Position numbers and translations under genes: made by a program. Positions 9,508 through 31,590 of a DNA stretch of 32,140 nucleotides are shown piece by piece. The notes under the pieces were generated by a model, which saw only the letters and a list, made by a program, of their open reading frames with translations, searched no databases and was not told the origin of the DNA. Position 1 is the first letter of the stretch, and each line of letters opens with the position of its first letter. This DNA is from Chitinivibrionales bacterium (GTDB lineage Bacteria; Fibrobacterota; Chitinivibrionia; Chitinivibrionales; WJKA01): contig WJLZ01000207.1 of the NCBI GenBank assembly GCA_014728215.1, forward strand, positions 1 to 32,140, in the 5' to 3' direction.

Positions 9508-9876
9508 TACTCATAAATTCGCTTGTTTAATCCATTCTTCAGGAGAAGTCGCCATATGCTATCCTTTCTTCGGTAATAAAGTATAATAGTTTTTTAATTC
9601 CAACACTTTTCATTTTATAAACCGAATATTATTTTGTTGGTGGATATCATTCATTAAAAAAGGCTGGAAGGAGTGATATCTCACCAATTTTATACAAGTG
9701 TAAACACATTTGTATTAAAGTAAGGCTTAATGGAAAGTGCTGCAATACATTTAAAGCAGACAACTAACACAGGCTCTGCGCCTCCTTTACACGTTGTAGT
9801 TAAAATTTAAATCGGAAATGCTCTTTCCGCATTCTTATAGTGTATGACGGTATAATCAGGTATAGGGGACGACAAA
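9508..9876. other. Gene-free AT-rich gap before a small lipoprotein
   Basis: I see no coding region here. The gap contains an imperfect dyad (9693-9714, arms TACAA...TTGTA around GTGTAAACAC), a perfect small hairpin CGGAAA/TTTCCG (9813-9818, 9824-9829), and a -10-like TATAAT (9851-9856) upstream of the small lipoprotein with no well-spaced -35 box. These are candidate control elements for the gene at 9877. Confidence 0.3.
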
Positions 9877-16556: not shown

Positions 16557-17036
16557 ATGAAATTGATATGTATGTTTGCTGTGGGTACACTTTTACTCCT
16601 ATCCTGCGGTATTGTAGGACCGGCTGAAGATCAACCGGTAGATTTTGAGAAAGTTAATATCTATTATGAAGACTCCACGGGAAGCGTGCATTATACCTCC
16701 GACTCGGAAGATGATGCATCGCTCGAGGCAACCTCGATTGCCTCTGATGACAGTCTTACCGAAAATGATTCTCTCGTATTGCATGAACGGGCCGATACAC
16801 TTATTGTCGAGCATATTGTTTATGCATTGAAACTTGGTTACAGCCAAACCGATGAAAAACAGCTTCGAAGCTGCTTATGGGACGAATTTAATATTGCCGA
16901 AAAAACAGAAAAGGAATTTGCCAAAACAACAAAATCCGATACCATATCAGGAACGGTAACCGCACAGATAACCCTCTCAAAAGAAAATCTCACCGATATT
17001 CTGGAGTGTAACGCCAACACCGCGTCAAATAATTGA
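16557..17036 (+). CDS. Small lipoprotein with acidic, Ser/Asp-rich linker
   Basis: A 159-residue protein beginning MKLICMFAVGTLLLLSC, a classical lipoprotein leader with lipobox LLSC (Cys17). After the anchor comes a long, acidic, probably disordered stretch (about residues 40-75, SDSEDDASLEATSIASDDSLTENDS) and then a helical region. The ATG is chosen because it begins the leader and has GAGGTG upstream at a workable distance; upstream open frame to 16335 adds no plausible sequence. No family recognised. A hairpin with a T-rich tail follows at 17108. Confidence 0.75.
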   Translation: MKLICMFAVGTLLLLSCGIVGPAEDQPVDFEKVNIYYEDSTGSVHYTSDSEDDASLEATSIASDDSLTENDSLVLHERADTLIVEHIVYALKLGYSQTDEKQLRSCLWDEFNIAEKTEKEFAKTTKSDTISGTVTAQITLSKENLTDILECNANTASNN

Positions 17037-17107
17037 CCGTTATATTTCAAGAAAATTTTACCTTAAAATTGCCGTTTAAAGCCAAAGAGGGCCGATTTAT
17101 ACAAATC

Positions 17108-17131
17108 GGACATTGATGTCCTTTGTTTTTT
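17108..17131 (+). terminator. Likely terminator after the lipoprotein gene
   Basis: GGACAT and ATGTCC (17108-17113, 17116-17121) form a short stem followed directly by a T-rich run TTTGTTTTTTG, 71 bases beyond the lipoprotein stop. The tight loop (2 to 4 bases) makes it a weak to moderate terminator. Confidence 0.5.
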
Positions 17132-17188
17132 GTTGATTTCATCATATTTTTTAATCGAAGTTACAGAAAAGAAAAAACAAGGATAATT

Positions 17189-17290
17189 ATGAATAACGCA
17201 GAAGTACTGATACATTTTCTTGCCATGATCACAACTCCTTTCAGTCGCCTTAGCATTTTGAGTAGTGACTTACCTTCTTCCCTAGCCTAG
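17189..17290 (+). CDS. Possible 33-residue peptide upstream of an RNA stem
   Basis: ATG at 17189 has AAGGAT 6 bases upstream and opens 33 codons ending in TAG at 17288-17290. The peptide has a central hydrophobic stretch (VLIHFLAMITTPF) and a Ser/Leu-rich end. The stop comes 3 bases before a GU-containing stem and 43 bases before a strong terminator. The layout resembles a leader peptide with an attenuator, but no gene follows in this direction, so an independent small transcript is more likely. Chance cannot be excluded. Confidence 0.35.
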   Translation: MNNAEVLIHFLAMITTPFSRLSILSSDLPSSLA

Positions 17291-17293
17291 CAG

Positions 17294-17362
17294 CATGTAG
17301 TGCCTCAGAAAAAGACGTAGGTGCTATATGTAGAAAAGGAGCGAATCCTCTCGCTCCTTTTT
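17294..17362 (+). ncRNA. Candidate small RNA: GU-rich stem plus terminator
   Basis: CATGTAGTGCC (17294-17304) pairs along its full 11 bases with GGTGCTATATG (17320-17330), loop 15 bases. Three of the pairs are G-U wobbles that become A-C mismatches on the opposite strand, so the structure favours a plus-strand RNA. A strong terminator hairpin follows after 3 bases. No promoter is clear, and no known RNA family is recognised. Confidence 0.35.
17334..17362. terminator. Strong rho-independent terminator, probably bidirectional
   Basis: AAAAGGAGCGA (17334-17344) and TCGCTCCTTTT (17351-17361) form a perfect 11-base stem with a 6-base loop, followed by a T-rich tail to 17370 on the plus strand. 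On the minus strand the stem ends in TTTT, about 80 bases past the stop of the gene at 17442, so it can end transcription from both sides. Confidence 0.85.
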
Positions 17363-17441
17363 CTTTTTTCAAAAAACGTGTTGCATAGAAAACTTCAGTA
17401 AGCCGGGGCACTAAGTCTTTTAGGCATTATTATAAGGCGTT

Positions 17442-18467
17442 TTACTGAATACTTGAAATAAAATTCATTGTTCCTTTCATTTCACGAATAGCATAAGCTC
17501 CGGAGGAGAATTTTTTCAGCTGTTCCCGGCACTCGGGCGTTCCGCCTTCTATTTTACCGATAAGCCTGCCTTGCAGGGAATAGATAAGAAAGACTCGGTC
17601 GGATTTTGTGTGAGTCAGATGGTATTGCAGGGGGCGTGATGAGGTGGCGCTGGCAGATAGGTCGTGTATCTGCTCTACCGCACCGCCGTCACCCCGGCAG
17701 ATCAAGGTCAGTTCCATAGGGTTTTCAACTCCTGTGGGAACCGTAAATTCGATTTCATTTCCCGATCCGATTGCTATTTCACTAAGATTATCGGAATTGG
17801 CGTCATAGGCCCAGGAGATATTGTCGCCTTCAGCCTTGAGCGTAATGGTGCTTCCCATAGCAAGTACCTGCGATTGATCCGGTTCTATGATCGATGTTGG
17901 TGTTGCATTGGGATTGGTTGGAGCGTCGGGCCGCGAGGAACCGTCGAGATATATGGCAAAACAATCGATTTTTACCCCCTTGGACCGTCCGGCGATCGAC
18001 AGGGTATGACTGCCTGCGCTGAGCTGCAGTTCATGTTTGATAACCCCATGCTGCGGCTCCCACCTGTTATTCCAGATCCAGGTATCCCAGGAGCCCTTGA
18101 CCATTGTTTTTGACCAGCTGTCGTTATCCATTTTTGTCCAGATATCATTACACTGATCATAGGCTTCACCCTCACACACGCCTTCATGGTCTCGGCGACC
18201 GCGAAAGTCGATAATATATTTGCCTGCTGAAGATAGCGAAAAGGTGTACTCCAGGATGCCTTGTTTATCTCGCGTAATGGTACTGGTTTCAGTCCAGTTG
18301 AAATAGCCGGTTCCACTGAAATCGGACTTATCGGTGGAAAGCTCCCAGGGTGCCACCGCGGGAATCGATTCAACTTCGATATAGTGGCTGGTCTGTGAAT
18401 AGGCATTGTGCGCAGTACAGAGAACTGCAACAAGAACCGGCAACAGTACCGTGTAAGATAATCTCAT
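17442..18467 (-). CDS. Secreted carbohydrate-binding-like protein with sorting tail
   Basis: A 341-residue secreted protein with signal peptide (MRLSYTVLLPVLVAVLCTAHNAYS). Residues about 27-170 look like a CBM6/GH115-C-type beta-sandwich: HYIEVESIPAVAPWELSTD, SGTGYFNWTE, KYIIDFRGRRDHEG, and ELQLSAGSHTLSIAGRSKGVKIDCFAIY. An Ig-like domain follows (about 185-270) and then a C-terminal tail (VFLIYSLQGRLIGKIEGG...FSSGAYAIREMKG) with the layout of sorting/anchoring domains. No catalytic module is present, so binding to a glycan or cell surface is the likely role. A strong AAAGGAGGGG precedes the ATG. It is divergent from the gene at 18870. Confidence 0.85.
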   Translation of the reverse strand: MRLSYTVLLPVLVAVLCTAHNAYSQTSHYIEVESIPAVAPWELSTDKSDFSGTGYFNWTETSTITRDKQGILEYTFSLSSAGKYIIDFRGRRDHEGVCEGEAYDQCNDIWTKMDNDSWSKTMVKGSWDTWIWNNRWEPQHGVIKHELQLSAGSHTLSIAGRSKGVKIDCFAIYLDGSSRPDAPTNPNATPTSIIEPDQSQVLAMGSTITLKAEGDNISWAYDANSDNLSEIAIGSGNEIEFTVPTGVENPMELTLICRGDGGAVEQIHDLSASATSSRPLQYHLTHTKSDRVFLIYSLQGRLIGKIEGGTPECREQLKKFSSGAYAIREMKGTMNFISSIQ

Positions 18468-18869
18468 TTCCCCTCCTTTTGAAGATGATACTTAACGGGA
18501 TTGCTGATTGATGATAAAAACCATTAGTAAGATTCCTTTTTATTTATGCATTTAATCGTATTGACTCTCCCCGGTGGTTTGAAAACGCTGTTATTAAAAT
18601 ATAAGAAAAAACATTCTGTATTGCATAATAATTTTTACAATTATTTTATGAAATATCATTTTATGAATCCATTAAAGCTTAATAACTTATTTAAAATTAA
18701 TGATTTAACTGGGTTTAAAAAATTTACAATATAAATGTTGACAATGCAATTTTTTTTCCTTATCTTATTATACAAGATTATCGGAGAAGCTATGAAATGC
18801 TCATTTTTGGCTATACAAAGAAATTTTAAGCGGTTTAATATATCAAAGAATAAACAGGAGGAGAGGAGC
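18468..18869. other. AT-rich divergent intergenic region
   Basis: About 400 bases between two divergent secreted-protein genes. It is strongly AT-rich from about 18590 to 18730, with many A and T runs. I find no gene or strong repeat in it; the open frames at 18546-18734 and on the opposite strand are low-complexity. It must carry the promoters for both neighbours; only the one at 18738 is recognisable. Confidence 0.4.
18738..18766 (+). promoter_or_regulatory. Probable sigma70-type promoter for the gene at 18870
   Basis: A perfect -35 box TTGACA (18738-18743) is followed after 17 bases by TATCTT (18761-18766), a 4-of-6 match to the -10 consensus; a better -10 TATTAT lies at 22 bases, too far. 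The leader would be about 100 bases and ends in AGGAGGAG just before the ATG at 18870. Confidence 0.55.
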
Positions 18870-22435: not shown

Positions 22436-22464
22436 TTGACATTCTTCCCTATATTGGGTATAAT
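22436..22464 (+). promoter_or_regulatory. Consensus sigma70 promoter for the signalling operon
   Basis: TTGACA (22436-22441) and TATAAT (22459-22464) are both perfect consensus hexamers separated by exactly 17 bases. Transcription would start near 22471, giving a leader of about 78 bases before the ATG at 22549. It is the strongest promoter I can identify in the window. Confidence 0.85.
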
Positions 22465-22548: not shown

Positions 22549-22923
22549 ATGAATTGTAAGAATGAGTCGAAGGAGATTCTGGTTGTTGATGACTGTCCTG
22601 AGATGCGAGCGGTGATGATTGATGTGCTCAAGGAGGAGGGGTATATCGTTATCGGGGCAGAGAGTGGTGATGATGCAATGAAATTGTTGCGCGATTTGAC
22701 ATTCAAAGTATTGGTGACCGATGTCGATATGCCGGGCATGAATGGATTGGAGCTTGCCCGGTATGTTAAAAAGGAGTATCCGGATACTGAAATTCTGATA
22801 GTTACCGGAAGTCATGAATTGTGTGTGGCAGAAACCGTTAAGGAGGTTGGCGCCGAATTCATGCAGAAGCCGTTTTGTCTATCGGCACTCATTGAAACAG
22901 TTCGGATGTTAATAGGAAAGTAG
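22549..22923 (+). CDS. CheY-like single-domain response regulator
   Basis: A 124-residue receiver domain and nothing else. Key residues are all present: acidic pair Asp14-Asp15 (VVDDC), phospho-acceptor Asp58 in VTDVDMPGMNG, Thr86 in LIVTGSHE and Lys107 in MQKPF. With no output domain it can act by protein contact (as CheY at a motor switch or in a phosphorelay) or as a phosphate sink for the histidine kinase encoded at 24978. It is first behind the consensus promoter, and GGGGAGG precedes the ATG. Confidence 0.95.
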   Translation: MNCKNESKEILVVDDCPEMRAVMIDVLKEEGYIVIGAESGDDAMKLLRDLTFKVLVTDVDMPGMNGLELARYVKKEYPDTEILIVTGSHELCVAETVKEVGAEFMQKPFCLSALIETVRMLIGK

Positions 22924-28557: not shown

Positions 28558-28620
28558 CCGCATTAAGAAGGGTGGTGAAAACATTTTCCCCCATACTCCA
28601 CCCCTCCATTTCATAATAAA

Positions 28621-28647
28621 AGCCCGCCTGTTCAGCTCAGGCGGGCT
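28621..28647 (-). terminator. Rho-independent terminator for the sugar isomerase gene
   Basis: AGCCCGCCTG (28621-28630) and CAGGCGGGCT (28638-28647) form a perfect 10-base GC-rich stem with a 7-base loop. On the minus strand the stem is followed by TTTTATT, so it terminates the gene at 28710, 63 bases past its stop. On the plus strand no T-run follows. Confidence 0.85.
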
Positions 28648-28709
28648 CGAAAACCAATTCCCACAGTGGAAATTCAGTAAAAAGGGAATTCTCTTTGTGC
28701 CTGCACGGT

Positions 28710-31024: not shown

Positions 31025-31306
31025 TTAGTAAACCTCATCATGCGTTCCGATAGTTTCAAGCAGAATAGCTTCTTTATCTTTTTCTTTTACAAAACTGAAT
31101 ACAATACGCAAATCATATCCGGCGCTGCAGGCCCAGGAACCAGCGAGATTGCCTGTCAGCTTGTGAGTTTTAAGGTATGGATGATAGGCGTCTTGTTCGA
31201 GCTTTTCAAGGGCTTCTTTTATATCAGAGACTAAAAGGGGCTTTTTTCGCAACATCTTTTTTGCGGCGCGGATAAATGCCGTGGACCGAATAAGCGGACG
31301 TTTCAT
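31025..31306 (-). CDS. RelE/YafQ-like toxin
   Basis: A 93-residue type II toxin of the RelE/ParE superfamily. It has the typical order: helix TAFIRAAKKMLRKKP, second helix DIKEALEKLEQDAYHPYLKTHKLTG, then strands WACSAGYDLRIVFSF and AILLETIGTHDEVY. The Arg in DLRIVF and the His in IGTHDEVY are at positions used for mRNA cleavage in YafQ-type toxins. Such toxins cleave mRNA at the ribosome and are neutralised by the partner antitoxin. It lies downstream of the antitoxin and overlaps it by 4 bases (ATGA), so it is made only with its partner. Confidence 0.88.
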   Translation of the reverse strand: MKRPLIRSTAFIRAAKKMLRKKPLLVSDIKEALEKLEQDAYHPYLKTHKLTGNLAGSWACSAGYDLRIVFSFVKEKDKEAILLETIGTHDEVY

Positions 31307-31515
31307 GATACTATTTCATTAATAATGTCATCAGGGCCGGCGATTTTGCATTTCTTTTTCCTGTATTCGGTTCGTGCATCTTTAATATCTTTTGCAAGCC
31401 CGCTTCTGCGTTCCGCTATTGTTCGTTTATGCAGGATCTCAACGAGTTCTTCCCGTGCATCAATTGGAAGATGGCTGGCGGCTTCCAATACATCATCGAA
31501 ACGTGGGTTTTTCAT
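31303..31515 (-). CDS. Antitoxin of the RelE-like pair
   Basis: A 70-residue acidic-to-basic helical protein: FDDVLEAASHLPIDAREELVEILHKRTIAERRSGLAKDIKDARTEYRKKKCKIAGPDDIINEIVS. This is the layout of short antitoxins next to RelE-like toxins in Cyanobacteria and other phyla, with an N-terminal part (EAASHLPIDAREELVEIL) that probably dimerises and a C-terminal tail that wraps the toxin. The ATG is set by GAGGAGAG upstream; a longer frame from 31569 would add 18 residues without a ribosome site. No DNA-binding motif is obvious. Confidence 0.82.
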   Translation of the reverse strand: MKNPRFDDVLEAASHLPIDAREELVEILHKRTIAERRSGLAKDIKDARTEYRKKKCKIAGPDDIINEIVS

Positions 31516-31590
31516 ATTTTCTCTCCTCAGGTTTCTTTTAAAATACCATTTTTGCGCTGGTCTTGCCATAAAAATTACCTGTGATAATTT

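Follow-up and report, generated by a model that had tools for sequence, protein, structure and literature searches.

A candidate antisense RNA opposite the start of a 21-residue hydrophobic frame in a Chitinivibrionales bacterium

Introduction

The closest described counterpart of the locus reported here is the Ibs/Sib system of Escherichia coli, in which the antisense RNA Sib spans both the ribosome site and the entire frame of the 19-residue peptide Ibs (PMC4147584, PMC8309996). Pairing of Sib on ibs is described as blocking translation (PMC4147584). In the SymE/SymR system of the same species, an antisense RNA likewise lies across the start codon and ribosome site, and SymE is characterised in that account as not particularly hydrophobic, with an endonuclease-like action (PMC4147584). 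In Microcystis, msoT1/msoA1 and other loci have been predicted from the combination of a small toxin-like frame with a promoter and terminator on the opposite strand, and part of these were tested by experiment (PMC12390103). According to the same source, type I pairs were known before 2025 only in Proteobacteria, Firmicutes and Tenericutes, and then also in Cyanobacteria.

Here we describe an intergenic locus in a Chitinivibrionales bacterium, for which a preliminary description had suggested a small transcript on the plus strand. Comparison with Ibs/Sib shows a peptide of similar size and hydrophobic character (21 residues), and a proposed RNA on the opposite strand over the ribosome site and start. 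The locus differs in being single copy, whereas Sib is reported to derive from a roughly 140-nt repeat, and in that the proposed RNA spans only about the first half of the frame. No sequence relation to Ibs/Sib was found, and the locus is known from sequence alone. With SymE/SymR it shares the position of the antisense RNA, and with the Microcystis loci, which belong to another phylum, the way in which it was predicted.

Results

The source genome comprises 5.0 Mb in 229 contigs; no 16S rRNA match was found in the assembly, despite its completeness rating of 96%. The window, which is the whole stretch of 32,140 nucleotides that was analysed, contains the locus between two convergent genes (Table 1). 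Genes were called with a home-made caller. A 50-residue minus-strand frame that it called at 17063-17215 was taken out by hand before the survey counts given below; had it stayed, the upstream neighbour of the strong terminator would have been a gene on the opposite strand. The letters, the minus-strand ribosome site, the hydrophobic frame, the terminator and the folds are direct readings of this DNA. Elsewhere in the window, the minus-strand frame at 31025-31306 matches YafQ_toxin (PF15738, E 4.4e-8, over the cut-off), and the upstream frame that overlaps it (31303-31569, minus) has no Pfam match; together they are likely a type II toxin-antitoxin pair.

Table 1. Positions in the window of the genes and features at the locus
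Feature	Position	Strand	Remarks
Upstream gene	16557-17036	+	Lipoprotein-like; N-terminus judged by eye
Probable terminator of upstream gene	17092-17131	+	Two short stems, then TTTGTTTTTT
Promoter-like site, GTTACA-16-GATAAT	17160-17187	+	9/12; 1 found vs 1.1 expected in shuffles
Hydrophobic frame of 21 residues, MARKCISTSALFIIILVFSFL and stop	17161-17226 (ATG 17226-17224, stop 17163-17161)	-	
Frame of 33 codons, MNNAEVLIHFLAMITTPFSRLSILSSDLPSSLA and stop	17189-17290	+	AAGGAT upstream of ATG; probably not coding
Proposed small antisense RNA	17194-17368	+	About 170-175 nt; inferred from promoter-like site and terminator
Ribosome site AAAGGAG	17235-17241	-	8 nt before minus ATG
Small hairpin	17243-17270	+	10-11 pairs with bulge, two or three G-U; moderate probability
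Stem	17293-17331 (17293-17305 with 17319-17331)	+	13 pairs including four G-U, 13-nt loop; fold
Strong intrinsic terminator	17333-17362, tract to 17368	+	12 pairs including one G-U, then U tract CTTTTTTC
Convergent gene	17442-18467	-	341 aa; relatives present in 4 of the 40 further genomes searched

The most telling feature of the locus is the minus-strand start region with its hydrophobic frame. The best 13-residue hydropathy of the 21-residue peptide is 2.9, which makes the frame the most hydrophobic of 19 that are led by an SD and encode 15-60 residues, in a set of 266 intergenic regions totalling 73,456 bases. Only two frames in these regions, this one among them, combine a seven-base SD with a hydropathy of at least 2.0, and the mean over ten shuffles of all 266 regions was 0.1 such frames. 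In 4000 shuffles of the region itself, counting either strand, an SD run of at least 6 together with a hydropathy of at least 2.0 arose 18 times, and a run of at least 7 five times; the frame was found post hoc, in a target scan of the plus strand, and the shuffle thresholds were chosen after it had been seen. The minus SD alone is not significant, since runs of at least 7 occur at 9 of 2315 intergenic ATGs against 6.1 expected (68 of 553 at gene starts). In minus-strand folds the SD is for the most part base-paired (18-54% unpaired), which was counted as neutral, because many toxin mRNAs hide their SD. At 21 residues, and judged by hydropathy alone, the frame matches the description of a type I toxin as a hydrophobic frame of under about 60 residues that contains a TM segment. 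Another small hydrophobic frame led by an SD lies at 9693-9770 of the window (minus strand, 26 residues, GTG start, 11-nt spacing), with no Pfam match.

No minus promoter-like site of at least 8/12 was found in 17227-17441, by a consensus that may not suit the phylum. A minus transcript could possibly arise by read-through from the convergent gene, and would need to do so should the minus frame lack a promoter of its own.

The 21-residue frame could also be the decayed start of a gene for an exported protein, cut off by a premature stop after its signal peptide. In its start region and opening codons it is similar to a large gene at C26:14274 (VARQCTINRVIISLSIFILFPVTVWAQ); however, when the 21 residues were searched against the translated genome, only the query itself was returned at E up to 10, and just 124 bases separate the minus stop from the next gene, with no continuation recognised by eye. 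We consider decay quite unlikely.

Three features of the plus strand stand out, and no others: the terminator itself, where it lies, and the fold immediately 5' of it. A strong terminator directly after a stem had been claimed in the preliminary description, and this is confirmed: the terminator starts one base after the stem. It is one of two strong intrinsic terminators in the window, the only other one lying at 28620-28648 on the minus strand, 64 nt past a same-strand gene. In the terminator survey, 71 matches were obtained, of which 42 fell within called genes and 29 were intergenic; all counts are from this survey, since a looser scan (197 matches) was too noisy and was dropped. Of the terminators surveyed, 23 follow a same-strand gene, and among these the one studied here is the farthest from the gene end, 302 nt past the nearest plus stop compared with 1-160 nt for the other 22, so that the usual gene-end distance is not matched on the plus side. 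A weaker terminator-like site (17108-17131, plus) lies between the upstream gene and the strong terminator. The remaining 6 of the 29 intergenic terminators have an opposite-strand gene upstream, and the terminator is thus not alone in having no near same-strand gene. The earlier statement that no gene follows on the plus strand also stands, the next plus gene beginning at 18735 and the next gene of all being the convergent one on the minus strand.

The same survey bears on whether the locus is ordinary convergent intergenic space, in which the hairpin at 17333-17362 would terminate in both directions, or serve as a backup, for the genes at 16557-17036 (plus) and 17442-18467 (minus), and the frames and the G-U stem would be there by chance. 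Such an arrangement is common, with 13 of the 23 terminators sitting between convergent genes, and the hairpin folds on the minus strand too, some 80 nt downstream of the minus stop, within the range of the others. It would also fit the plus frame and the stem, each near chance, and the lack of conservation of any part. It does not account for the 302-nt distance with a terminator-like site in between, or for a long T tract on the plus side where the minus side has the weaker TTTTCTAC, and it makes a coincidence of the minus SD and the hydrophobic frame. We regard ordinary convergent space as a serious possibility, although a somewhat unlikely one.

The stem before the terminator had been described as 11 pairs with three G-U pairs from 17294; it is present, and counting its ends it comprises 13 pairs, four of them G-U. 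The proposal that its wobble pairs favour a plus-strand RNA agrees with the folds, in which the stem reaches -15.2 kcal/mol on the plus strand and -7.4 for the complement. By itself the stem is near chance, or marginal: a hairpin of at least 13 pairs arose in 92 of 3000 shuffles, and of 208 real intergenic strands 10 had one, a single strand combining it with a long SD-led frame. The entire 193-nt fold has a z of -2.26, but for the 139-nt body, from which the terminator is excluded, z is about 0, not more structured than shuffles. Stability is concentrated in the 50 nt preceding the terminator (z -2.55, rank second of 29).

The 33-codon plus frame with its ribosome site is present as described, ending 3 bases before the stem as then delimited (stop to 17290, stem from 17294). 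Its start codon, the AAGGAT upstream and the open frame are what could speak for a plus-strand peptide or a dual-function RNA, as had been suggested. Its codon score is -0.17 bits per codon compared with 0.17 (sd 0.14) for real pieces, lower than that of 99.2% of 251 real 32-codon pieces. An SD run of 5, as found here, is equalled or beaten at 134 of the 2315 intergenic ATGs. A frame at least as long with an SD appeared in 3% of 2000 shuffles of the same intergenic region and, in the real sequence, on 25 of the 208 intergenic strands. No homolog of the peptide was found in 41 genomes, the best weak match (E 0.062) being out of frame within a 195-residue gene and the rest having E of at least 0.28. 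Because of the non-coding-like codon use, the ordinary ribosome site and the absence of a homolog, the plus peptide is probably due to chance. As a gene it was rejected on the codon score, the commonness of such frames and SDs, and the missing homolog; a coding or dual-function role of the plus strand is very improbable.

One promoter-like site, the sole one on the plus strand for the proposed RNA, precedes the start of the latter, and at the frequency expected in shuffles (Table 1) it is no evidence by itself. Its -10 box sits on the plus ribosome site, which further weakens the peptide and dual-function ideas: promoter and peptide would be mutually exclusive, and a transcript from this site would begin after the plus ATG. 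A 12/12 match to a sigma-70-type promoter with 17-nt spacing lies elsewhere in the window, at 22436-22464 (plus), upstream of the plus gene at 22549, which we take to be response-regulator-like.

The plus-strand segment 17217-17243 was scanned against 701 gene starts. Its mean pairing energy was -12.01, compared with -10.71 (sd 0.39) for shuffles, and its best was -30.7, compared with -29.1 for the lowest of 30 shuffles; it pairs well with several gene starts. Such values could point to a plus small RNA that acts on distant messages, with the minus frame there by chance, and the evidence from the terminator would serve this reading as it does an antisense one. When the segment was compared with 40 reverse-complemented real gene starts, however, its mean was ordinary (4 were as low or lower), and its best energy was equalled by 1 of the 40. 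The segment pairs well with gene starts because its complement is the minus start region (AAAGGAG, 8 nt, ATG), and such pairing is to be expected of the complement of a real start region, which speaks for the antisense reading. Nor does the genome hold an Hfq over the family cut-off, the one match below it lying inside a 762-residue frame. The locus resembles trans-acting intergenic small RNAs in its intergenic position, hairpins and U-tailed terminator, but is not conserved, and its target signal is no more than the complement of a start region would give. Action on distant messages therefore appears unlikely.

Two further readings were rejected. A trans target for 17271-17293 or for the loop 17305-17320 was discarded, as pairing was no better than for shuffles. 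Mimicry of the 16S tail, for which the locus was top of the 208 intergenic strands (12 compared with 11 for the next three), was discarded because the minus start region accounts for the score.

The preliminary description named a lack of conservation of the stem and the plus frame as a result that would refute it, and this is what was seen as far as the genomes allowed: no relative of either was found. Searched in 60 genomes, the DNA of the locus gave only short weak matches outside its own one. The 21-residue peptide, searched in 40 genomes of the order, its own among them, matched itself and one further sequence at E 0.738; it has no relative in phages, plasmids or viral contigs, and no match in Pfam or NCBIfam. 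Rfam gave 0 matches at the gathering score in the window and, at the locus, only sub-threshold ones, and a known Rfam family was rejected, as no score passed any family cut-off. Two covariance models, R1 and R2, each built from a single sequence entered twice, weakly matched 4 and 8 of 41 genomes, respectively (own included in each count), at E values of up to 0.5; the printed alignments score mainly at the terminator, and an RNA family in relatives was likewise rejected.

A repeat or mobile element was discarded as well, there being no second copy in the genome, no tandem repeats and no sizeable phage or plasmid match. A conserved neighbourhood was also rejected, as the sole genome of the same genus has part of the convergent gene followed by a different gene, with no counterpart of the locus. 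The upstream gene, too, has no homolog among the 41 genomes searched, so the stretch may be recent; with one genus-mate, 77% complete, missing conservation is weak evidence either way. A literature search found no report on small RNAs of the order Chitinivibrionales in the sources that it covered.

Discussion

We tentatively propose that the plus strand produces an antisense RNA over the start of a gene for a 21-residue membrane peptide on the minus strand, a reading that may be right, though we would stop short of calling it probable. It is the simplest single account of the distant terminator, the plus-biased stem and the minus start region. An independent plus-strand small RNA is also the best-fitting part of the preliminary description: the distant terminator, the intervening terminator-like site and the stem favouring the plus strand argue for it, and the ideas of a peptide or a dual function fall away.

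Under the antisense proposal, the plus strand would give a short RNA, some 170 nt long and untranslated, that starts near 17194 and ends at the terminator. This RNA would lie opposite the minus ribosome site, the start codon and about eleven codons of the 21-residue frame; by position, its complementarity to the minus start region is exact. Pairing with the minus message would block translation, and the RNA duplex could be open to RNase III. The resulting layout would match either a type I toxin-antitoxin pair resembling Ibs/Sib or a small membrane protein under antisense control. Both transcripts, the plus start site, pairing in cells and any toxicity of the peptide are what we infer from the arrangement of the locus.

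We describe the locus as one that may work like a type I pair and do not file it as one, since no minus promoter was recognised, no family was matched and toxicity is only presumed. That it represents a type I-like toxin-antitoxin pair in Chitinivibrionales (Fibrobacterota), outside the reported phyla and with no relative in the genomes searched, seems to us rather doubtful. If the antisense proposal is false, the locus is ordinary convergent intergenic space. If it is true, the range of antisense-controlled tiny membrane peptides would extend to a mostly uncultured phylum, and such pairs could be found opposite terminators that lie unusually distant from gene ends.
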